Assembly (NCBI GenBank): GCA_002404055.1
Contig: DHIZ01000036.1
Location: forward strand, 1 to 22,212
Reading direction: 5' to 3'
From: Chloroflexi bacterium UBA4733
Lineage (GTDB): Bacteria; Chloroflexota; UBA4733
Length of the DNA stretch: 22,212 nucleotides
This document shows, piece after piece, positions 3,909 through 22,076 of the stretch; positions within the stretch are counted from its first letter, which is position 1; each line of letters opens with the position of its first letter. Under the pieces are notes generated by a model, which had not been told where the DNA came from, did no database searches, and saw only the letters and a list, made by a program, of their open reading frames with translations. Both the position numbers and the translations under genes were made by a program.

Positions 3909-5411
3909 ATGCCCGACAACAGCATCTCGAACTTGGGGGCCAGAGCGCTGGCCCGTGTGCTGCCTCGCCGCCGCCTGCTGACCGTGCTGGTCGCGGGCGC
4001 GACGATACCGTTGCTGGCAGCCTGCGGGGGGAGCGCCACCGCCATCGTCACCGCCTCGACCACGAGGACTACCACAGTGGCTGCCACCCCGTCCCTGGCC
4101 TCCACAACGTCCCGGACCGCGGCCGCGCCAGCCACGAGCGCCGCGACGACGACTTCGGCCACGACGACTAGCGCGGCTGCAGCACCCGTAGCCACCGCCG
4201 CGCCGACCCAGCCGGTAGCAGCGGGTAGCAAACTCGTCTTTTGGAATGCTACCGAAGGCACAGTGACGGGCTACGAACAAGGCGACAAGAATGGCTTCCT
4301 CGACTATTTTCGGGCGAAACATCCCGAGATCCAGTTAGAGGCGGATTACTTCCCGGACATCTACACGAAGTACGAGAAGACGGCTGTCGCCGGCACGCCG
4401 CCGGATGTTTCCTTTGTCAGCGTCGTTTCGGTCTACGACTACGCGAAGAAGGGATTCCTCACCAACCTGCAGCCCTACTGGAACCGCAGCAAGCTGGGCA
4501 TGGGGAACTACTATCAGGTCTTTTTTGACGCGATGCGGTACCCATCGACCACAGCGGATCTCTACGCCATACCGTACGAGTGGATCAATACCTGGCTCAC
4601 CTACAACAAGGATCTATTCCAGCATGCGGGCGTACCGTTTCCCGACGAGACCTGGACGTACGCCAAGGTGCGTGACACGGCGCACGGGCTTACCGACTCG
4701 ACCAAGCCGCAGTGGGGCACCACGTCCAGCATCGACTACAGCCATCTCGGCTGCATCATCCCCTCCAACGGAGGAAGCCATCTCAGCCCGGACTACCGCA
4801 AGTGCACCTTCGATTCGCCGGAGAACGTCAACACGATTCAGTACCTGCACGATCTGATGTACAAGGATAATGCGGCCCCGCCATCCGGCACCAAAGCTCC
4901 AGACAAGGGTTGGTTTGTCAACAATCAGCAATCCATCAGCATGTGGGATTGCTGCGGCACCCTTGGCACGTACCGTCAGAGCAAGGGACTATCTTGGGAC
5001 ATTACTCTGAACCCGAAGGGCACGAAAGGGCAGTATAACGTCGGATGGTCCAACCAGTACGTCATATCGACCGTATCCAAAGTGAAGGACTCGGCCTGGG
5101 AGTTGATCACTGACTCTATCCGCCCGGATCGCCCGCCACTGACTTTTGGACAGGGCAAGGCGCCAATCATCAAGGCTGCCGCCGAGGCCTGGCTGGTTGA
5201 CCAGAAGAATGAGCCACCGGCGAACCTTAAGGTCTACTTGGACGAGCAGTACCTCACGCAACTCGTCGTCGGTCCTAACTGGAACGACTGGCAGAAAGTG
5301 CTCAACCAGCAACTCAATGATGCCCTTCAGAACAAGGTATCAGTTCCCGACGCCGTAACTGCGGCCACCAAGGCCGTGCAGGTCGTGCTTGATAAGGCCT
5401 TCGCTTCATGA
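3909..5411 (+). CDS. Extracellular solute-binding protein, family 1 (ABC sugar importer lipoprotein)
   Basis: A surface-anchored binding protein for an ABC importer, most likely of sugars or oligosaccharides. The ATG at 3909 has gggag six bases upstream. It yields 500 residues with an Arg-rich n-region (PRRRLLTVLVAG), a hydrophobic core and a lipobox LLAAC whose Cys39 would be lipidated. Residues about 42-105 are an Ala/Thr/Ser low-complexity linker. The binding domain follows, with the typical family 1 text FWNATEG, KTAVAGTPPDVSFVS and YAIPYEWINTWLTYNKDLF. The upstream in-frame extension to 3831 is not signal-like and is rejected. The gene follows an AraC regulator, but no permease or ATPase follows it. 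The stop overlaps an ATG (ATGA) that opens a degenerate frame, suggesting partners were lost. The exact substrate cannot be told from sequence. Confidence 0.93.
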   Translation: MPDNSISNLGARALARVLPRRRLLTVLVAGATIPLLAACGGSATAIVTASTTRTTTVAATPSLASTTSRTAAAPATSAATTTSATTTSAAAAPVATAAPTQPVAAGSKLVFWNATEGTVTGYEQGDKNGFLDYFRAKHPEIQLEADYFPDIYTKYEKTAVAGTPPDVSFVSVVSVYDYAKKGFLTNLQPYWNRSKLGMGNYYQVFFDAMRYPSTTADLYAIPYEWINTWLTYNKDLFQHAGVPFPDETWTYAKVRDTAHGLTDSTKPQWGTTSSIDYSHLGCIIPSNGGSHLSPDYRKCTFDSPENVNTIQYLHDLMYKDNAAPPSGTKAPDKGWFVNNQQSISMWDCCGTLGTYRQSKGLSWDITLNPKGTKGQYNVGWSNQYVISTVSKVKDSAWELITDSIRPDRPPLTFGQGKAPIIKAAAEAWLVDQKNEPPANLKVYLDEQYLTQLVVGPNWNDWQKVLNQQLNDALQNKVSVPDAVTAATKAVQVVLDKAFAS

Positions 5412-6520: not shown

Positions 6521-7654
6521 ATGCCTGCATCACCGGAGGGCCCTGCCGCAGACGACCGAGAACGGTCGTCCCAATCGGTACACGCCGCTGCTCCTTCCGC
6601 AAGCGGAGCCGAGGAGGCGCCAGGGTTGGCGACCCATGCGTTGCTGCAACGCCTGCTGCTGGTAACGCCGTCGCGTCTTAGCCTACCGAAGTCCGTGGAC
6701 AGTCCAACGACGCTGGCAGAGTGGCAGGTGCAACTCCGAGCTGCTCTCTGGCAGGTGCTTGGGGTAGCGCCAGAGCCCCAGCAACCGGTCGCAGTGCAGG
6801 TGCTGGACAGCGAACAGTGTGATGGCTACACGCGACAGCATCTGCGCTACGCCGGCACGTTGGGGGGAACCGGCATAGCCTACCTGCTCGTACCGGACGG
6901 AGCGACCGGGCAGGCGCGGCCCGGGTTGATCTGTCTGCATGGGCACGGCGCCAACCTCGGCAAAGCACTCGTCGTGGGGCTGCCGCCGGACGCGGAGGCG
7001 GCAGCAACGATCGCCAGACTGCGCTACGACTTCGCCGTCGCCTTTGCCCAACGTGGCTATGTGACACTGGCCCCCGACGCCATCGGCTTCGGTGAGCGCG
7101 CTCCAGACCACTCTGGCGGCTATCACACCGCCATGGGGCTCGTTGCGGAATATCTGGGACACTCCCTCACCGGCCTGCGTTTGCTCGACGACCAACGGGC
7201 GCTGACGGTGCTGGCGACCCGGCCCGAGGTGGATGCGCGCCGGCTTGGCACGGTCGGACTGTCTGAAGGAGGGAAGCGGGCCCTCTTCCTCGCGGCCTTT
7301 GATGAGCGCATCCGGGCCGCTGTCGTGAGTGGCTACTTCACCACCCTGCGCCAGGAAGTGCTGACCTGGCGGCGGTTGCAGGGCTGGGACCTCTGCAACC
7401 ACCTGTTCGGACTACTCCGGCTCTGCGATCTGCCGGACATCGCCGCGCTCGTGGCTCCGCGTCCTCTGCTCATTCAAAACGGCCGTCGGGATTCTCTCTA
7501 CGGCGTCGAGGAGGTGGAGACGGGCTTCGCCACCGTGCGCCGCGCCTACGCTGTCGGAGAGGAGACCACCTGCGCGCTGGACCTGTTCGACGGGGAACAC
7601 GTCTTCAATTTGGCTCCTGCCGCGGGATGGTTCGCTCGTCACCTCGCTGCGTGA
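6521..7654 (+). CDS. Alpha/beta hydrolase (dienelactone hydrolase / acetylxylan esterase-like)
   Basis: A serine hydrolase, probably an esterase. The fold shows an oxyanion-region motif (GLICLHGHGANLG), the nucleophile elbow GLSEGG with S248, the acid in NGRRDSLYG (D324) and the histidine in FDGEHVFN (H360). No secretion signal is evident, so it probably acts in the cytoplasm. The ATG at 6521 is preferred because aaggtg lies six bases upstream. The in-frame ATG at 6491 would overlap the oxygenase gene and add non-family residues. The first about 35 residues are Ala/Ser/Glu-rich and probably disordered. It forms a tight pair with the PhyH-family gene. Together with the upstream binding protein they suggest uptake, ester cleavage and oxidation of an acylated or aromatic glycoside-type compound, which is an inference from context only. 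Confidence 0.85.
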   Translation: MPASPEGPAADDRERSSQSVHAAAPSASGAEEAPGLATHALLQRLLLVTPSRLSLPKSVDSPTTLAEWQVQLRAALWQVLGVAPEPQQPVAVQVLDSEQCDGYTRQHLRYAGTLGGTGIAYLLVPDGATGQARPGLICLHGHGANLGKALVVGLPPDAEAAATIARLRYDFAVAFAQRGYVTLAPDAIGFGERAPDHSGGYHTAMGLVAEYLGHSLTGLRLLDDQRALTVLATRPEVDARRLGTVGLSEGGKRALFLAAFDERIRAAVVSGYFTTLRQEVLTWRRLQGWDLCNHLFGLLRLCDLPDIAALVAPRPLLIQNGRRDSLYGVEEVETGFATVRRAYAVGEETTCALDLFDGEHVFNLAPAAGWFARHLAA

Positions 7655-7674: not shown

Positions 7675-8275
7675 GAGGATGGCGGAGGAGTCCATTTTTG
7701 CCACTATTCCCTCTGCTCGCCCTGCGAGAAGCCGTCGTGAACGCGCTCTGTCACCGAGACTATTCCATTCCGGGTGGCGCCGTCAGTATCACCATTTATG
7801 ACGACCGGTTAGAGGTTTGGAGCGCTGGAACGCTGCCGTTTGGTCTCCAGGTTGAGGACCTCAAGCGGGATCATCAGTCGCGCCCGCGCAACCTGTTGAT
7901 TGCCGGCGTGTTCTACCGCCGCGGCCTCGTCGAACAGTGGGGACGCGGCACGCAGAACATCGTCGAACTCTGCGTCGAGGCCGGGCATCCGGAACCGGAG
8001 TTTGTGGAGCAAGCGGGTGCAGTTGGTGTTCGCTTCCTGCCGAGCGGCTACATTGCCCGCACCGAGTCGGCCACGACCTCACGCCTCGTCAGCGCGAGAT
8101 TCTGCACTTGCTGGCCCAAAAGGGACCAATGTCCGCAGCCGAGATTCATGCCGCGATAAGCCATCCGCAATCGAAACGATCAGTCCAGACAGACCTGGCG
8201 CTCCTGCATCGGCTCAATCTTGTGGATCCCACCGGACGGGGCCGGGCAGTAGTGCATCGGTTACGTCGGTAAGAT
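7675..8275 (+). pseudogene. Remnant of an AlbA_2/HATPase_c_4-type ATP-binding transcriptional regulator
   Basis: The frame from about 7698 encodes the C-terminal ATPase-like half of this regulator family (ALREAVVNALCHRDYS, then IYDDRLEVWSAGTLPFG, then VEQWGRGTQNIVELC). The N-terminal DNA-binding AlbA_2 domain is absent: a stop in this frame at 7674-7676 and the preceding hydrolase gene leave no room. The frame then breaks at a run of three C's (8056-8058). Restoring one C joins SGYIA to a second frame reading PHRVGHDLTPRQREIL and a winged-helix tail that ends at 8270-8272 (RLRR). The piece is therefore both truncated at its start and frameshifted. A TTG at 7698 with ggaggag upstream could allow translation of a short product, but I read this as a decaying gene. 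Confidence 0.75.
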
Positions 8276-8440: not shown

Positions 8441-9718
8441 TCACCCTGCCAGTGCCACCTCCGCCGCTTGCACCGTGGCTGCGATCACGTCGTCATCGTG
8501 CGCCAGCGATACGAAGGCGGCTTCGAAGGCGGATGGCGCCAGGAAGACACCCTGCTCCAACAGGCGGCGGTGGAAGCGGCGGAAGCGGTCGGTGTCGGAC
8601 TCCTGGGCCTCAGCGAAGGTGCGCACGGGGCCGGGATGGAAGAAGAGGCTGAGCATGCTGCCAGCACGGTTGATAGTGACGGGGACGCCGTGGCGCCGGG
8701 CAGCGGTTGCAAGGCCCGCTTCCAGAGCGGCCGACCGGCGTTCCAGCGTGGCGTAGGCATCCGGTTCCTGCAATGCCTTGAGCGTGGCGATGCCGGCAGC
8801 CATGGCCAGGGGATTGCCGGAAAGCGTGCCGGCCTGGTAGACCGGCCCGGCCGGCGCAATCTGCTGCATCAGGTCGGCGCGGCCGCCGTAGGCGCCGACC
8901 GGTAGTCCACCGCCGACAATCTTGCCCAGGCAGGTGAGGTCAGGCGTCACGCCGTAGCGCGTCTGCGCACCGCCATAGGCGACGCGGAAGCCGGTCATCA
9001 CTTCATCGAAGATCAGCAGCGCGCCTTCGCGGCGGGTGATGTTGCGCAGGCCGGCCAGGAAGCCAGGTTCCGGTAGCAAGACGCCGGCGTTGCCCACTAC
9101 CGGCTCCACGATCACGGCGGCCACGGCGCCGGGCTGGCGCGCGAAGACCGCTTCCACGGCGGCCAGGTCGTTGAACGGGACGCTGCTGGTGTGCTGCACG
9201 GCGGAGGCCGGCACGCCGGGGCTATCCGGCAGGCCCAGGGTCGCCACGCCGGAGCCGGCGCTGACCAGGAAGGCGTCGGCGTGGCCGTGGTAGCAACCGT
9301 CGAACTTAATAACGCCGGGGCGGCCGGTGGCGGCGCGGGCCAGGCGCAGCGCGCTCATCGTGGCTTCGGTGCCGGAGTTGACGAAGCGCACCTGCTCCAC
9401 GGAGGGCAGGGCCGCCGTGATCAGTTCTGCGAGCTCCACCTCCAGGGGGTTCGGTGCGCCATAGCTCCAGCCGCGTTCGACGGCGGCATGGAGGGCCGTC
9501 GCTACGCTTGCGGGAGCATGGCCCAGGATCAGCGGACCGTAGGCGCAGACGTAGTCGATGTAGCGCCGACCATCCACATCATAGAGATACGGCCCTTCGC
9601 CGCGCTGCACGAAGAAGGGCGTGCCGCCGACAGCGCGAAAGGCGCGCACCGGACTGTTGACGCCGCCTGGCAGTAACTGCTGGGCGCGCGCAAAGAGGGT
9701 CTCCGATAACGTTGGCAC
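8441..9718 (-). CDS. hemL: Glutamate-1-semialdehyde 2,1-aminomutase
   Basis: Converts glutamate-1-semialdehyde to 5-aminolevulinate, the committed precursor for haem and other tetrapyrroles in the C5 pathway. It is a cytoplasmic class III aminotransferase-fold enzyme using pyridoxal phosphate. Visible marks are [20 protein letters not shown], the phosphate/ring-binding aspartate in [12 protein letters not shown] (D238), and the cofactor lysine in [16 protein letters not shown] (K266). The GTG start at 9718 shares its first base with the stop of the upstream gene (TAGTG) and has ggagag five bases before it. This makes it far better than the in-frame start at 9748. The product is 425 residues, normal for the family. 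Tight coupling to the cobA-hemD gene places both in one tetrapyrrole operon. Confidence 0.95.
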
Positions 9719-11307
9719 TATGTCTCTCCTGCGGCCGCCACGAACCACAAATGCAGCACCTGCACCAGGGCGGGAATGGTGTGTTCTGCGGCAACCACGT
9801 CAACCCGCAGCCCTGCCTCCTGCGCGGCTGCCGCTGTGACCGGGCCGATGCAGGCGATGACGGCGTTGCCCAGCGCTTCGGCAGGGCCGGCGTAGCCGGC
9901 ATGGCGGGTGAGGTCGGCAAAGTGGTGCATGGTGAGGCTGCTGGCGAAGGTGACGGCGTCGATGCCCTCTGCCAGGGCCGCGCGCAGTTGCGCTGCGTCG
10001 CCCTCGCCGGGAACAGTGTCGTAGACGGCGACTTGTTCGGCGATGATGCCGCGGGCCAAAAGTCCCTCCCGCAGTGCCGGGCGAGCCGCCGCCGCCAGCG
10101 CCAGCAGCACGCGCTCCCCAGGCTGCGCGGGGATGCCGGCCGCCAGTGCTTCACCGATGTATTCCTGCGGTCGGTAGGACACGCGCAGGCCCAGACGCTC
10201 CGCCTCGCGCGCCGTGGCCGGGCCGATCACGGCGATCTTGCGGTCAGCCAGGTCACCTAGGGGGCGACCCAACGCCAGGAGCCGCGCAATGGTCAGCGCC
10301 ACGCCGCTGCTGCTACTGAAGACGACCCAGGCGTAGCGATCCAGGTGTAAAAGCGCGTCATCAAGCTCCGGGGAGGCGGCGGGCGCAATGGCCAGCGCCG
10401 GCACTTCCACCGGAATGGCGCCGGCGGAGCGCAGTTGGTCCGCCAGTTCGCTGGCCTTCTCCCGGCTGCGGGTGACGAGGATGCGCTTGCCAAACAGCGG
10501 GTCCGTGTCGAACCAACGTAGGCGCTCTCGCAAGGCCACCACCTCGCCCACCACGATGATGGCCGGCGGGCGCAGTGGACGGACGCGGGCCGCCAACAGG
10601 GCCTCAATGCTGCCCAGTGTGCCGGTGACCGTCTCCTGCTCTGGGCGCGTACCCCAGCGGATCAGGGCGATCGGCGTCTCCGCAGCGCGGCCGGCCACCA
10701 GCAGGCTGCCGACAACCTCGGACAGGTTACCCACGCCCATCAGTAGCACCAGCGTATCGGCGGCGGCCAGCGCCTGCCAGTCCAGCGCACTCTCTGCTTT
10801 GCCGGGCTCTTCGTGGCCGGTGGCGATGGCGAGCGTGCTGGCCAGGCCGCGATGGGTCAGCGGGATGCCGGCGTAGGCGGGAACGGCCAGTGCGGAACTG
10901 ACGCCGGGCACAACTTCGAAGGGGATACCGGCGGCGCGCAATGCCTCCGCCTCTTCGCTGCCGCGACCGAAGAGGAAGGGATCCCCACCCTTCAAGCGCA
11001 CCACGACCTTACCCTGCCGCCCGTAGGCGACGAGCAAGGTGTTGATCTCCGTCTGAGTCAGCGTGTGTTGCCCGGCCTGCTTGCCGGCGTAGATGCGTTC
11101 GGCAGTGTCCGGCGCGAAGGCAAGCAAGGCAGGGTTGGCGAGGTAGTCGTAGATCACGACCTCGGCCGAGGCCAGGCAGTCGCGCCCTTTGATCGTCAGC
11201 AGCCCCGGATCGCCCGGCCCGGCGCCGACCAGATAGACTTTGCCTGACGTAGCGGGCTCCCCTCGGTTCACAGCAGGCTGTCGGCCGCCGCGTCTCCATG
11301 CTAGCAC
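9718..11307 (-). CDS. cobA-hemD: Uroporphyrinogen-III C-methyltransferase / uroporphyrinogen-III synthase fusion
   Basis: A two-domain tetrapyrrole enzyme. Residues about 22-265 are the SAM-dependent uroporphyrinogen-III methyltransferase, which forms precorrin-2 for sirohaem and cobalamin. Its motifs are [36 protein letters not shown] and [22 protein letters not shown]. Residues about 275-529 are uroporphyrinogen-III synthase, which closes the hydroxymethylbilane ring ([20 protein letters not shown], then [12 protein letters not shown] near the end). Fusions of these two activities are well known in bacteria. The start is uncertain: GTG at 11307 gives 529 residues, while GTG at 11271 begins just before the conserved domain. 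Neither has a strong ribosome site. The gene overlaps hemL by one base, so the two products should be made in concert. Confidence 0.93.
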
Positions 11308-12665: not shown

Positions 12666-12703
12666 TCAGGATGTCAAGCTCCGCGTGCAAGAGGAGGTCG
12701 CCC

Positions 12704-13282
12704 GTGGGTTCCGCCCTCACAACAACCAGGCGCTACACTGTCGATGACCTTGACCAGTTTCCTGATGACGGCAAACTCCGGGAATTGGTCAACGGCGAGA
12801 TTGTGGAGTGGGACGCGCCGTCGTGGGAGCACGCCGCCCTGGAGGCGGAACTGACCAGCATTATTCGGAACTTTGTCCGCGAGCGTCGTCTCGGCACCGT
12901 CGGATGCGGCGAAGCGATGGTGCGCATCCTGGGCAGCGCGCATGATGCTCGTGGCAGCGACATTGAGTTCTGTCGCCGCGGGCGTAGTACGTGGGCCGAA
13001 GCCCGGCTGCCCGCCGCCTTGACGCCTCCGGATCTCGTGGTGGAGATCATTTCGCCGTCTGACCGGGCCGATCAGGTCATGGAAAAGGTGCACGACTGGC
13101 TGCGGGCGGGCGTGCAACTCCTCTGGTACATCAATCCAGAGACGGGAACCACGACGGTCTATCAGGGTGATCGAATCACCCACGTAACGGCGGACGCGGT
13201 GCTCGACGGTGGCGATGTCCTGCCGGGGTTCCAGATTCGCCTCGGCCAACTGCTGCAGGAGCTGCGCGCGGAGATGGTGTAA
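12704..13282 (+). CDS. Uma2 family (DUF820) endonuclease-like protein, copy A of a close pair
   Basis: A PD-(D/E)XK-fold Uma2 protein of 192 residues with the order TRRYTVDDLDQFPDD, ELVNGEIVEWD, RGSDIEFCRRG, PDLVVEIISPSDRADQVMEK and LLWYINPETG. The GTG at 12704 is the start. The strong site gaggagg lies six bases upstream, and it makes the protein exactly as long as the paralogue at 14990. The longer open frame to 12608 has no family sequence. Aligned by eye, the two copies differ at about 36 of 192 positions (near 81% identity), whereas the copy at 2298 is much more distant. It stands 219 bp before a binding-protein gene. The 13283-13501 gap shows only a loose -10-like TATGCT at 13469 and no firm promoter. 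Confidence 0.85.
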   Translation: MGSALTTTRRYTVDDLDQFPDDGKLRELVNGEIVEWDAPSWEHAALEAELTSIIRNFVRERRLGTVGCGEAMVRILGSAHDARGSDIEFCRRGRSTWAEARLPAALTPPDLVVEIISPSDRADQVMEKVHDWLRAGVQLLWYINPETGTTTVYQGDRITHVTADAVLDGGDVLPGFQIRLGQLLQELRAEMV

Positions 13283-13501
13283 GTCGTCATTGGCGCCTAC
13301 CTGGCGCTTGTCGAACGGCGTTCATGCTGCGGCCGATGGCAAGGCATTGGGCTCCCCCAGCAGTCCGATCTTCCGTAGTGGCGTCGGAACGGCTCAGGTG
13401 GCTGGCGGCTGGTTGGAGCGTCAGGCAGCGGTGGCGAAGCTGCCGGGTCGTCTGGGCAACACATATGGTATGCTAGGCCCGCACACGGCATCAGGACGGG
13501 G

Positions 13502-14965
13502 ATGGTAGGGATGCCTGGATACACCATTGGTCGACGAGCGGTCTTGCGCGCCTGCGCCGCGGGTGGGTTGCTCCTGGCGGCGCCGCTCCTCGCTGCCTGT
13601 GGCAGCACCGGCGCCAACGGCGCCTTGACGGCGACGATGGCGACGATGGCGACGACGGCAACGATGGCACCGGCGTCCAGCGTGGCACTCAGCGTGTCAA
13701 CCACAACGGGGAGCGCCAGCACTACCGCTCAGCCCGCATCCAGTGCCGCCGCCGCTCCGGCCGGCGCTCCAGGCGCCCTCAGCTTCTGGTCGATGGATGA
13801 CCCCACCACCGGCCAGCACTACAAGGCCTGGGTGCAGCGGATCAAGGACTTCAATGCCGCCAATCCAAAGTCCCCCGCCGCGATCGTGAACATGTCCTAC
13901 AGCAGCGTCAACACAAAACTGCCGGCGGTGGTCGCTGCCGGGACGCCGCCGAACGTTGCCGAGCAGGATCGCTACACCATCGCGGCCGGCGCCGCGCGCA
14001 GCTTGATGCAGGACATTTCGGCGCGTGCCAACACCGCCGGCATTAAAGGGGACGATCAGCAACCCTGGGCCTGGCAGGAAGTTGCCATCAAAGGCAAGCT
14101 CTACGGCCTGCCGACGGACACCGACAGCCGCATGGTCTTCTATAACGTCAACCAGTTGCAGCAGGTCGGCCTCGCCAAGACCACACCGAAGACGCTCGAC
14201 GACTATGCGCAGATCGCCCAGAAGCTCACCATCAAGCAGGGCGACAGCTTCAAGCAGATCGGCTTTCTGCCCTGGTACGACAACTGGGGCCTCTTCGGCT
14301 TCGGCTGGCTGTTCGGCGGTGCCTTCTACGATGAGCAGTCCGGCAAGGCCACCCTCGACGACCCCAAGAACATCGCGGCGCTGGACTGGCTCAACAATCA
14401 GGCCAAGCTCGTCGGCTATGACCCCGGCCAGGCGTTCATCAAGGCGCGCGGCGCGCAGGGCAATCTGTTTCAGTTTCAGGCGATCAGCACGTACTTCCAG
14501 GCCAGCGCCTCAGTGCATACTTACCTGGACACGTCCGGCCTGGACTGGGGCGTGTGGCCGCCCCCGCCGCCCCAGGGGATGGCTCACACCAGCACCTGGT
14601 CGGGGGGCTTCTGCGTCGTCCTGCCCGCCGGGGCGAAGGACCCAGACCCATCGTTCGACCTTATGCGTTACCTGTCGGACGCTCCTTGCCAGTTCCTGCT
14701 CGCCAAATTGGGCCTCAGCCTGCCAACGATCAAATCCGTGGCCAGCGACCCCTACTGGAATACCGTCGACCCGCGCGTGAAGCAGTTTGTGGATATCCTG
14801 CCCTACTCGCATAGCCGCCCGGCCATCCCGCAGATCAATCTGATGAATACCCAGCTCAATACGGCGCGCGCCGACGTGCTGAGCGGCAAGAAGGGCGCGG
14901 CGGAGGCGTTGCAGGAGGCGAACCAGCAGGTTAATCTGGCCATCCAACAGAACCGCACATCCTGA
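13502..14965 (+). CDS. Extracellular solute-binding protein, family 1 (lipoprotein), without permeases
   Basis: A 487-residue lipid-anchored binding protein of the sugar ABC-importer type. The signal has twin arginines (GRRAVLRACAAGG) and the lipobox LLAAC with Cys33, so Tat export is plausible. Residues about 34-95 are a low-complexity linker containing an Ala-Thr-Met repeat. The binding domain then shows LSFWSMDDPTTGQHYKAW, LPAVVAAGTPPNVAEQDRYT and GLPTDTDSRMVFYNVNQLQQ. An in-frame ATG at 13511 is an alternative start and would change little. The gene is bracketed by two near-duplicate Uma2 genes, the second beginning only 24 bp after the stop. A membrane histidine kinase follows that. No transport partner is adjacent, so it may serve a distant importer or the kinase. 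Confidence 0.92.
   Translation: MVGMPGYTIGRRAVLRACAAGGLLLAAPLLAACGSTGANGALTATMATMATTATMAPASSVALSVSTTTGSASTTAQPASSAAAAPAGAPGALSFWSMDDPTTGQHYKAWVQRIKDFNAANPKSPAAIVNMSYSSVNTKLPAVVAAGTPPNVAEQDRYTIAAGAARSLMQDISARANTAGIKGDDQQPWAWQEVAIKGKLYGLPTDTDSRMVFYNVNQLQQVGLAKTTPKTLDDYAQIAQKLTIKQGDSFKQIGFLPWYDNWGLFGFGWLFGGAFYDEQSGKATLDDPKNIAALDWLNNQAKLVGYDPGQAFIKARGAQGNLFQFQAISTYFQASASVHTYLDTSGLDWGVWPPPPPQGMAHTSTWSGGFCVVLPAGAKDPDPSFDLMRYLSDAPCQFLLAKLGLSLPTIKSVASDPYWNTVDPRVKQFVDILPYSHSRPAIPQINLMNTQLNTARADVLSGKKGAAEALQEANQQVNLAIQQNRTS
13631..13666 (+). repeat. In-frame 9-bp tandem repeat in the lipoprotein linker
   Basis: Four copies of a 9-bp unit (gcgacgatg with two single-base variants) encode Ala-Thr-Met three times and Ala-Thr-Thr once. 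They lie in the flexible segment just after the lipidated cysteine. Because the unit is a multiple of three, slippage would change linker length without breaking the frame. Confidence 0.85.
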
Positions 14966-14989
14966 TTTAGCGACACGAGGAGTGAGCTT

Positions 14990-15568
14990 ATGGTACTCTC
15001 GCTCGCACCAACCAGACGCTACACTGTTGATGACCTTGACCAGTTCCCCGACGACGACAAGCTGCGGGAGTTGGTGGACGGAAAGATTGTGGAGTGGGAC
15101 ATGCCATCGTGGGAGCACTCCACGCTGGAGGCGGAACTCGCACGGATCATCGGGAACTTTGTCCGCGAACACCGCCTCGGTCTCGTCGGCAGCGGCGAAG
15201 GCATGGTGCGAATCCTGGGCAGCGCCCATGATGCCCGCGGCAGTGACATTGAGTTCTGTCGCCGCGGCCGACGCAGCCGGGACGAGGCCCGGCTATCCGC
15301 CGCCTTGACGGCGCCGGATCTCGTGGTGGAGATCATTTCCCCCTCCGACCGTGCCGATCAGGTCCTGGAAAAGGTCCACGACTGGCTGCGGACCGGCGTG
15401 CAGCTCCTCTGGTACATCAATCCAGAGACGGGGACCACCACAGTCTATCAGGGCGATCATGTCACCCACGTGGCGGCCGACGAGGTGCTCGACGGTGGCG
15501 ACGTGCTGCCCGGCTTTCAGGTTCAAATCGGACGCCTGCTGCAGGAGCTGCGCGCGGAGATGGAATAG
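14990..15568 (+). CDS. Uma2 family (DUF820) endonuclease-like protein, copy B of a close pair
   Basis: A 192-residue Uma2 protein with the same motif order as copy A at 12704, including unchanged blocks such as RRYTVDDLDQFPDD, RILGSAHDARGSDIEFCRRG and QLLWYINPETGTTTVYQGD. ATG at 14990 has gaggag seven bases upstream. Differences from copy A are scattered, with a small cluster at the stretch after CRRGR, as expected of paralogues diverging under constraint rather than one decaying. It follows the binding-protein gene by 24 bp and precedes the hybrid kinase by 19 bp, so these three genes look like one transcription unit. The role of a nuclease-like protein in that unit is unknown. Confidence 0.85.
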   Translation: MVLSLAPTRRYTVDDLDQFPDDDKLRELVDGKIVEWDMPSWEHSTLEAELARIIGNFVREHRLGLVGSGEGMVRILGSAHDARGSDIEFCRRGRRSRDEARLSAALTAPDLVVEIISPSDRADQVLEKVHDWLRTGVQLLWYINPETGTTTVYQGDHVTHVAADEVLDGGDVLPGFQVQIGRLLQELRAEME

Positions 15569-18981: not shown

Positions 18982-19221
18982 CAATTCGCTCCGCACCTGC
19001 CAGGACTACTCTATGATTACAACATGGTCGCTCTGGCGCTATGCCGTGCTTCCCTACGGGCAGCCCTTAGTTTATACTCTCAAGTATCGTGGCGTTTGTT
19101 CTGGTCGGCAACGGCGCGCAGGCGGCCCGACGGTGTCATCACCAGGGCAGCGCCATTCGCTGCATCGACCGAAGCCTGTTCTGTAGCGCGTGACGGTTCA
19201 GTTCAGCAAGGAGTGGCAAGG

Positions 19222-21183
19222 ATGTCTAGATTCCCAACGTTGCCTGCCAGCAGGCGGTCCTTCCTGGCGCGCAGTGCCGGAGTGCTCTTCGCCGGCGGGG
19301 TGGTGCCGCTGCTGGCTGCATGCGGCAGCTCGTCCAGCGCGACTACCTCGGTAACGGCCAGTGCGGTGGCAAGCACGTCGGGCGGCGCGACTGTCGGCAG
19401 CGGCGCGACCGCCGCAAAGCAGGCCGGATCGTCCACCAGTGCGGCCCCCGTCAGTCAGGCAGCAGCCGGACAAGCGGCGCAGGGGAGTGTCACCTGGTTG
19501 GTGCCGGAGGACCCGCTGCTCGACAAGTTCTCGCGCACGGGGATCGTGCCGGACTTCAAGAAAGCGCAGCCTAACATCAATGTGCAGGTGGTCTCCCCCG
19601 GCAGCACGGCCTACGGCGAGAAGCTGCTGGCGTTAGTGGCTGCCGGCACCACGCCGGAGGTCTTTACCGACTGGGGCAACATCGGCATCTTCACCTTGCA
19701 GAGCCACCAGATCGTCACCGACCTCTCTACCTATATCAATCAGGCCAAGATCGACCTGAGCTTCCTGTTGCCGTCCTACGTCACCGAGTACTCGGCCAAC
19801 GGGGGCCTGTATGCAGTACCCTGGAACAGCAACCCAAACTTTATCGTTTACAACAAGACACTGTTCCAGAAGTACAACGTGGCGCTGCCGCCGACCGATT
19901 GGAGCGACAAGACCTGGACCACGGACAAAATGCTGGCGGCGGCGCAGACCCTCACCCATGCCACTGGCGATCCGTCGACTTCGACCTTCGGCCTGATTAT
20001 GGGCGCCGGCTCCATCGGCTCGCTTGGCTGGCTCTGGAACGCTGATCCCTTCAACAACACCGGCGGCCCCGAGGCCTCGACGGTCTACCAGGGTCAACCC
20101 TATGGCCAGGTATACCCGGACCGCCAGGGCATGGTCGACGCCATGACCTGGCTGGCCGACCTTACCCTGAAACAAAAGGTCAGTCCGACTCCTACCGATA
20201 CGAAGGCCTTCTCCACGCAGGGCAACCCCATCTTCAGTGGGCGGGTCGGCATGGCGGCGCCCAGCGTTGCGGCGGGCGGATCTGCCACCCGCCGGCGCTC
20301 CTTGCAGCGGGAGCGGACTCTCTGGTTCTATCTCTTCATCGCGCCCTGGCTGATCGGCTTCCTCTGCTTCACCGTCTACCCGGTCATTGCCTCGTTCTAC
20401 TTCAGCTTCACGCAGTACAACGTGACGCAGGCGCCGATCTGGATCGGGGCGGCCAACTACGGCAACCTGATCCACGACAGTCTGTTCTGGCATTCGCTGG
20501 CGATCACCGGTATCTACGCCATAGTGTCGGTGCCCTTGAACCTGCTGCTGGCCTTCTGTTGCGCGCTGCTGCTGAACGTGCGCCTGCCTTTTATGCGGGT
20601 GCTGCGCACGATCTACTACTTGCCGACGGTGCTGCCCGTCGCCGCTACCTCGGTGCTCTGGTTATTTCTGTTCCTGCCGGAGTTCGGCATCGTCGACTGG
20701 GTGATCCACTCGCTGACCGGTAGGGCCGGCCCCGACTGGTTAGGCGACCCGCAGTGGGTGTTACCGGCGCTTATCCTGATGAGTGTCTGGGGCATCGGCT
20801 CCGCCATGGTGATCTTCCTGGCGGGCTTGCAAGCCATCCCGCCCGAACTCTATGAGGCGGCGCAACTGGACGGCGCCGGCTTGTTCGCCCGTGCCAGGAG
20901 TGTCACGTTTCCGATGGTCACGCCGGTGTTGCTGCTGAACCTGATTCTCGGTCTGATCGGCGCCTCGCAGACCTTTACGCAGCCCTACATCCTGACGCAG
21001 GGCGGGCCCGACTACGCCTCCTACTTCTACAGCCTGTACCTCTACCAGAATGCCTTTGAGTACTTCAAACTCGGTCTGGCCTCGGCCCAGGCCTGGATTC
21101 TCTTCGGGCTGGTCCTCATCTGCACCGTGACGGTCTTCCGTTCCTCGGCGCGCTGGGTGTATTACGGTGGCGAGCGTTCTTAG
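19222..21183 (+). CDS. Fusion of a truncated sugar-binding lipoprotein with a UgpA/MalF-type ABC permease
   Basis: One uninterrupted frame of 653 residues. Residues 1-343 are a family 1 solute-binding protein. It has a twin-arginine-like signal (RRSFLARSAG), lipobox LLAAC with Cys34, a Ser/Ala/Thr linker to about 90, then a binding domain with GTTPEVFTDWGN and VPWNSNPNFIVYNKTLF. It breaks off at FSGRVGM. From Met344 (20251) a complete 310-residue permease follows, with six hydrophobic segments, the N-terminal ERTLWFYLFIAPWLIGF and the ATPase-docking EAA loop ELYEAAQLDGAG near 545. By comparison with the protein at 3909, about 155 C-terminal residues of the binding protein are missing. ATG at 19222 has aaggag eight bases upstream; the longer frame to 18658 is rejected. 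The permease may be translated separately from 20251. A deletion that joined two neighbouring genes, or an assembly error, are both possible. Confidence 0.85.
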   Translation: MSRFPTLPASRRSFLARSAGVLFAGGVVPLLAACGSSSSATTSVTASAVASTSGGATVGSGATAAKQAGSSTSAAPVSQAAAGQAAQGSVTWLVPEDPLLDKFSRTGIVPDFKKAQPNINVQVVSPGSTAYGEKLLALVAAGTTPEVFTDWGNIGIFTLQSHQIVTDLSTYINQAKIDLSFLLPSYVTEYSANGGLYAVPWNSNPNFIVYNKTLFQKYNVALPPTDWSDKTWTTDKMLAAAQTLTHATGDPSTSTFGLIMGAGSIGSLGWLWNADPFNNTGGPEASTVYQGQPYGQVYPDRQGMVDAMTWLADLTLKQKVSPTPTDTKAFSTQGNPIFSGRVGMAAPSVAAGGSATRRRSLQRERTLWFYLFIAPWLIGFLCFTVYPVIASFYFSFTQYNVTQAPIWIGAANYGNLIHDSLFWHSLAITGIYAIVSVPLNLLLAFCCALLLNVRLPFMRVLRTIYYLPTVLPVAATSVLWLFLFLPEFGIVDWVIHSLTGRAGPDWLGDPQWVLPALILMSVWGIGSAMVIFLAGLQAIPPELYEAAQLDGAGLFARARSVTFPMVTPVLLLNLILGLIGASQTFTQPYILTQGGPDYASYFYSLYLYQNAFEYFKLGLASAQAWILFGLVLICTVTVFRSSARWVYYGGERS

Positions 21184-21194
21184 GAAGGCGGACG

Positions 21195-22076
21195 ATGGCT
21201 GAATCGCAGTTAATTGTGCAGCGGCGGGCGAGCAGCCTGCGCCTTGGCAGGGCAGGCATGCACCGGGTCCACATGGGGCTGGCGTTGCTGATCCTGCTGC
21301 CCGGTGCGGTCGTCTTCATCTTCCCCGCCTTCTGGATGGCTATTTCCTCCTTCGAACACGTCGCCCAGATTCTGCAGTATCCGCCGAGCTTCATCCCCAA
21401 CCCCTGGACGTTGCAGGGCTACGCAAAAGGCTTGACTGCCCAGCCCTTTGCCCGCTACTTCGGCAATACTATCGAGATAGCCGTGTTGTCCTCCATCGGC
21501 GGCGTGCTCTCCTCCTCCCTGGCGGCCTTTGCCTTCGCCCGCATCAAGGCGCCGGGATCGGAGGCACTGTTCCTGCTGGTGCTGAGCACGCTCATGCTCC
21601 CCTACGCCGCCGTGATGATCCCCCAATACGTCATGTTCCGCCATCTGGGCTGGATCGACACTTACCTGCCGTTGATCGTGCCCGCCTGGTTCGGTCTGCC
21701 GTTTCAGATCTTTCTCTTCCGGCAGTTTTTTGCAACGATCCCGGAGGAAGCCTTCGAGGCGGCGCGTATCGATGGCTGTGGCTATCCGCGCCTCTACTGG
21801 CAGATCGCCATCCCGCTCTCCATCCCGGTCGTCGCCACCGGCTTGATCTTCCATATTCAGGCCGTCTGGAGCGACTTTCTGGCGCCGCTGATCTACCTAA
21901 ACTCCAATGCCAAGCTGACGGTGTCGCTGGCCCTGGCCGCCTTCCAATCCAGTTGTGATTGCACAGCCTGGAACCAGTTCATGGCTGCTGCACTGCTGGT
22001 GACGCTGGTGCCGATCACCTTGTTCTTCTTCGGTCAGCGCTACATCCTGAGCGGGATCGTGGTGACGTCGCGGTAA
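21195..22076 (+). CDS. ABC sugar-importer permease, UgpE/MalG type
   Basis: The second inner-membrane subunit of a carbohydrate ABC importer, pairing with the permease part of the preceding gene. The 293-residue protein has about six hydrophobic segments. It starts with the typical LLPGAVVFIFPAFWMAISSF and carries the cytoplasmic ATPase-contact loop EEAFEAARIDGCGYPRLYWQ. A C-terminal QRYILSGIVVTSR closes it as in the family. The ATG at 21195 follows aggaaggcgg and lies 11 bp after the upstream stop, so translation is probably coupled. No ATPase gene follows within the window. Many importers of this class share a single distant MsmX/UgpC-like ATPase, which would fit. Confidence 0.93.
   Translation: MAESQLIVQRRASSLRLGRAGMHRVHMGLALLILLPGAVVFIFPAFWMAISSFEHVAQILQYPPSFIPNPWTLQGYAKGLTAQPFARYFGNTIEIAVLSSIGGVLSSSLAAFAFARIKAPGSEALFLLVLSTLMLPYAAVMIPQYVMFRHLGWIDTYLPLIVPAWFGLPFQIFLFRQFFATIPEEAFEAARIDGCGYPRLYWQIAIPLSIPVVATGLIFHIQAVWSDFLAPLIYLNSNAKLTVSLALAAFQSSCDCTAWNQFMAAALLVTLVPITLFFFGQRYILSGIVVTSR

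Follow-up and report, generated by a model that had tools for sequence, protein, structure and literature searches.

In carbohydrate importers of the CUT1 type (UgpB/UgpA/UgpE, MalE/MalF/MalG), a solute-binding protein (SBP) is followed by two permeases, the first of which carries an EAA motif. We have analysed a stretch of 22,212 nucleotides from Chloroflexi bacterium UBA4733 (contig DHIZ01000036.1; hereafter the window) that likewise contains an SBP, a UgpA-like and a UgpE-like permease in this order, but in which the final third of the SBP gene is missing and what is left of it continues into the first permease. Fusions of binding domains to permeases exist in the osmolyte and amino-acid importers OpuA and GlnP, which are similar to the window in this respect, although they belong to other transporter families and keep whole binding domains.

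A preliminary description of this locus had placed the known fusions in amino-acid and osmolyte importers, and this proved too narrow, as a MalE domain fused to MalF and competent for transport is described in an excerpt of PMC7756565, whose reference 38 (Licht et al. 2019) concerns a natural MalE-MalF fusion. The PDB chain 6ffl_A, listed as 'Maltose/maltodextrin transport permease homologue', belongs to an entry linked with the natural MalE-MalF fusion. The host of this fusion is said to be Bdellovibrio. Like the window, it has a binding domain and a MalF-type permease in one chain, but it retains a solute-binding domain, whereas the window lacks 174 residues of its own. Four fusions present in the databases (P0019-P0022, 770-827 aa) likewise carry PF00528 behind PF01547/PF13416 in a single chain. 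In all four the match to the SBP profile extends as far as positions 297-306 of 307, and SBP and permease are separated by a hydrophobic helix that the fused frame of the window does not have; their SBPs are not close to that of the window. The fusion of an SBP to a MalF-type permease is, as such, not new.

The fused frame and its junction

The fused gene (19222-21183, + strand) is a real open frame of 653 codons in a window containing no N, and its third-position GC is high all along (0.78-0.93). It is preceded by AAGGAG (19208-19213, +), 9 nt 5' of the ATG at 19222, which is its likely ribosome-binding site, and it starts with a lipoprotein-type signal sequence (19222-19323, +) ending in LAAC (Cys 34), whose twin-arginine-like beginning, SRRSFL, may be a Tat-like signal. 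R11, R12 and C34 (P0001 numbering) are invariant across 22 aligned unfused SBPs. A family 1 sugar-binding lipoprotein contributes its N-terminal part as residues 1-343, with the SBP domain from 19465 to 20250 (+). The Pfam SBP_bac_1 profile (PF01547) is matched by residues 108-345 at positions 13-233 of 307 only, so that the fused frame does not hold a complete two-lobed family 1 SBP, while in the unfused relative P0001 the match reaches position 300.

The rest of the frame (20251-21183, +) encodes a complete UgpA/MalF-type permease of 310 aa, in which BPD_transp_1 (PF00528) is nearly whole (fused-frame residues 443-644, profile positions 4-176 of 184) and the EAA motif reads EAAQLDGAG. The PRK10561 UgpA profile aligns with this permease over positions 9-294 of 295 (E 6.2e-25), with a score of 88.6 bits that stays below the 335-bit equivalog cut-off. 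It is followed by the second permease of the operon (21195-22076, +), of the UgpE/MalG type, which is intact, contains PF00528 and is 78.8% identical over 293 residues to its orthologue in the related genome G002; the PRK10973 UgpE profile matches it with an E of 6.5e-31, again under its equivalog cut-off.

Both parts meet at the ATG at 20251-20253 (residue 344), which supplies the methionine of the RVGM motif on the SBP side and at the same time the natural start residue of the permease. Because the stand-alone permease P0046 (309 aa, starting MAATAV) aligns from its first residue with Met 344 and is 89% identical over its whole length, the permease of the window is complete at its start. The preliminary description was right about both the composition of the frame, the N-terminal two-thirds of an SBP plus a complete MalF/UgpA permease, and the exact position of the join. 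As RVGMAE is found at the break point in P0001, P0002 and P0004 and P0046 begins with MAA, both edges in an ancestor of this kind would carry ATGGC within their own reading frame, although this is derived from the protein sequences of relatives; the putative deletion junction would correspond to ATGGC at 20251-20255 (+), that is, the Met-Ala of RVGMA and the Met-Ala start of the permease. In the two relatives that we compared by DNA the edges do not have ATGGC in common, the longest shared strings being TCAGCG (G002) and GCTGC (G001). No repeat of at least 12 nt touching 20201-20300 was found elsewhere in the window, and no AGGAGG-like sequence was seen upstream of 20251.

Gene order in relatives and searches for the junction

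The 18 closest SBP matches (P0001-P0018, E <= 7e-98), obtained in a protein search that scored only the 7995 candidates with most shared words, are all unfused and contain SBP domains only; they measure 369-528 aa, with fewer than 430 aa in P0005, P0014 and P0015. In a sample of 400 genomes of the phylum, 7 had a match at E 1e-95. Searches by the family, the order and the class of G002 gave the same three genomes each time, G002-G004. In all four related genomes with an orthologue (G001-G004) the SBP extends beyond the break point. In the proteins P0001, P0002, P0003 and P0004 the homologue of residue 344 is followed by 174, 174, 174 and 170 residues, respectively. This confirmed a loss as described previously but not its size, which had been put at about 155 residues by comparison with the paralogue at 3909 and which amounts to 170-174 when measured against the four orthologous relatives.

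An adjacent permease was seen in two of these four genomes. In G001 the SBP gene ends at L001:7485 and a separate permease starts at 7506; in G002 the corresponding positions are L057:1484 and 1501. The spacer between the complete SBP and the permease is therefore of 16-20 nt, and, counted from the SBP codon that corresponds to residue 344, the permease ATG comes 529 bp later in G002 and 536 bp later in G001, which is the length that the window lacks by comparison with each of them. The ancestral order is thus that of two separate genes. A relative with an entire SBP gene and, behind it, a permease gene of its own is what the preliminary description had named, as one half of the case against its reading, and this half is found in G001 and G002. 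In G003 no permease was found beside the SBP within the 5982 bases examined, and the contig of G004 stops within the SBP. Furthermore, P0002 (SBP, 520 aa) and P0046 are each assigned to a 4887-base contig of one source, and their genes are therefore probably adjacent.

The preliminary description had suggested looking for the same junction in related genomes and protein databases, and the junction did not appear there: none of the 10 matches listed from the 400 phylum genomes is a fusion, and none of the 9 proteins matching the junction region (residues 312-380) has a permease domain. Of the 1452 frames with 150 aa or more in the window and the related loci, the fused frame is the only one joining an SBP to a permease, and none of the 70 plasmid records matched covers more than 80% of the query. 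Within the sequences searched the junction is unique, and as far as these go the truncated fusion would be a private deletion.

Several loci had to be discarded as fusions. In L082 and L084, near permease matches from G001 and G003, a stop codon parts the SBP and permease frames, L083 contains permease frames only and L081 holds a permease-permease fusion instead. This last one (G001:C7:45500-50000, positions 356-2389, - strand) is a frame of 678 residues with matches to the UgpA-like as well as the UgpE-like permease of the window, a fusion of the MalF-MalG type. As a separate observation, P0045 (919 aa) reads as two SBP-like halves in tandem, and its precomputed Pfam list has no permease domain.

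We also looked for the missing SBP tail in the rest of the window by tblastn. Weak matches only (best E 0.05 to 0.1) were obtained besides a decayed fragment of another SBP copy at 13335-13439 (+), which corresponds to residues 327-361 of P0001 (68.6% identity over 35 residues, E 5.8e-9), spans the junction position and lies directly upstream of an intact SBP gene (13502-14965).

Origin and function of the fused allele

We consider that the in-frame chimera was produced by a fairly recent single deletion in an SBP-permease-permease operon, a reading to which we give a probability of roughly three in four. The deletion would have removed about 0.53-0.55 kb, comprising the final ~174 SBP codons with their stop, the short spacer and the ribosome-binding region that had belonged to the permease, and the break probably took place at the short ATGGC match, in frame at the Met-Ala codons of the SBP and at the Met-Ala start of the permease. 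With ATGGC in frame at both edges, a join that falls exactly at an ATG and keeps the frame would require no further assumption. In the product, an export and lipoprotein signal would be followed by a binding domain that is incomplete and by a permease that is whole. Of the origins that had been proposed previously (a novel chimera, a deletion product or an assembly collapse), the deletion product is the one favoured by the gene order of G001 and G002 and by the uniqueness of the junction in our searches, whereas the absence of 174 residues and of a linking helix argues against a novel chimera that works.

Several features suggest that the chimera would be unable to bind sugar. Residues 103-518 of P0001 align with the solved relative 6rjy_A, but in the fused frame this alignment stops at residue 333, and therefore a large C-terminal share of the binding-protein fold has been lost. 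A simple Kyte-Doolittle hydropathy scan, which is not a topology predictor, found no extra membrane segment in residues 37-370, the first permease helix starting at 371. Positively charged segments of membrane proteins stay on the inside (the positive-inside rule), and an exported SBP piece would place the arginine-rich start of the permease outside, against this rule. Export of the SBP piece and normal insertion of the permease would then be hard to reconcile. Moreover, the loss of the spacer with the ribosome site of the permease, together with the lack of an AGGAGG-like sequence before 20251, indicates that the permease would be translated mainly as part of the chimera. From these features the fused gene would most likely represent a loss-of-function allele of the importer.

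The SBP piece is 94.1% identical to P0001 over a core of 253 residues, and of 132 sites in this core that do not vary among seven relatives, the window has changed one, the relatives themselves ranging from 0/131 to 15/146. In the permease, 3 of 184 otherwise invariant sites are changed. The core changes specific to the window and to P0001, counted with five outgroups, were 10:3, 7:2, 6:4, 7:2 and 3:2, and this excess in the window would represent a mild lean towards relaxation. The low decay of the SBP piece would follow from a recent event, from an artificial join or from continued use of the piece, and the conservation data do not separate these three cases.

An artificial join, in which a chimeric fragment of library DNA or an assembly or scaffolding error lost ~0.54 kb while the organism has the normal two genes, is in our opinion improbable, but it deserves attention because the junction is known from a single source sequence and appears in no other sequence searched, and the low decay of the SBP piece (1/132) would be expected from it. 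However, the window has no N and the surroundings of the junction have no repeated sequence of the length given above. Short-read assemblers collapse repeats at word lengths that are far above 5-7 nt, and the inferred match at the join is only of about this size. In addition, the relic at 13335-13439 indicates that SBP copies genuinely break up in this region, and such a rearranged neighbourhood, which also includes the pair of Uma2-family genes described below, lends more credibility to a genuine deletion than to an artefact, although it does not prove the deletion.

Far less probable, and in our view very doubtful, is that the truncated SBP has become the N-terminal domain of a working permease, either as a half-domain outside the cell or as a tail inside it, in an importer that is independent of a binding protein or that borrows one of the 13502 type. 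The intact frame with its high third-position GC and the well-kept permease are in line with such a protein, and the conservation of the SBP piece would likewise agree with a domain that has a function. The SBP gene at 13502-14965 has an orthologue in G004 (88.9% DNA identity over 1239 nt) located directly before the intact SBP gene, so that a neighbouring SBP could serve these permeases. Excerpts from the literature point in the same direction, as the MalE-MalF fusion is able to transport (PMC7756565) and maltose permease mutants import sugar without the binding protein (PMC3899296). Nevertheless, 174 of the ~519 SBP residues are absent, each of the four natural fusions examined has kept its entire SBP together with one more predicted membrane helix, and no relative has this junction in common with the window. 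If such a functional chimera were true, it would be a natural MalF-type importer freed of its binding protein in one step. At present the locus exemplifies a single deletion between adjacent operon genes, to all appearances an ordinary one with a probably non-functional product, and not a novel type of transporter. A caution also follows, since a domain search by itself would label the fused frame as an SBP-permease fusion protein.

Neighbourhood of the fused frame

The intact SBP gene at 13502-14965 is flanked by two Uma2-family genes (12688-13282 and 14974-15568, both +), which are 80% identical over 300 nt with a constant spacing of 2286 nt, and this suggests that the pair arose by segmental duplication. 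About 4.2 kb separate this SBP gene from the fused frame, an interval that contains a Uma2 gene, a hybrid histidine kinase and a response regulator gene on the reverse strand. In the locus of G004 mentioned above (L063, G004:C263) the two SBPs may share one operon.

Two other frames of the window were noted for their domain content. The short frame at 7698-8159 (+) contains HATPase_c_4 (PF13749) only and may be what is left of the C-terminus of a longer regulator, and the frame at 9718-11307 (- strand) combines a tetrapyrrole methylase (PF00590) and a uroporphyrinogen-III synthase (PF02602).
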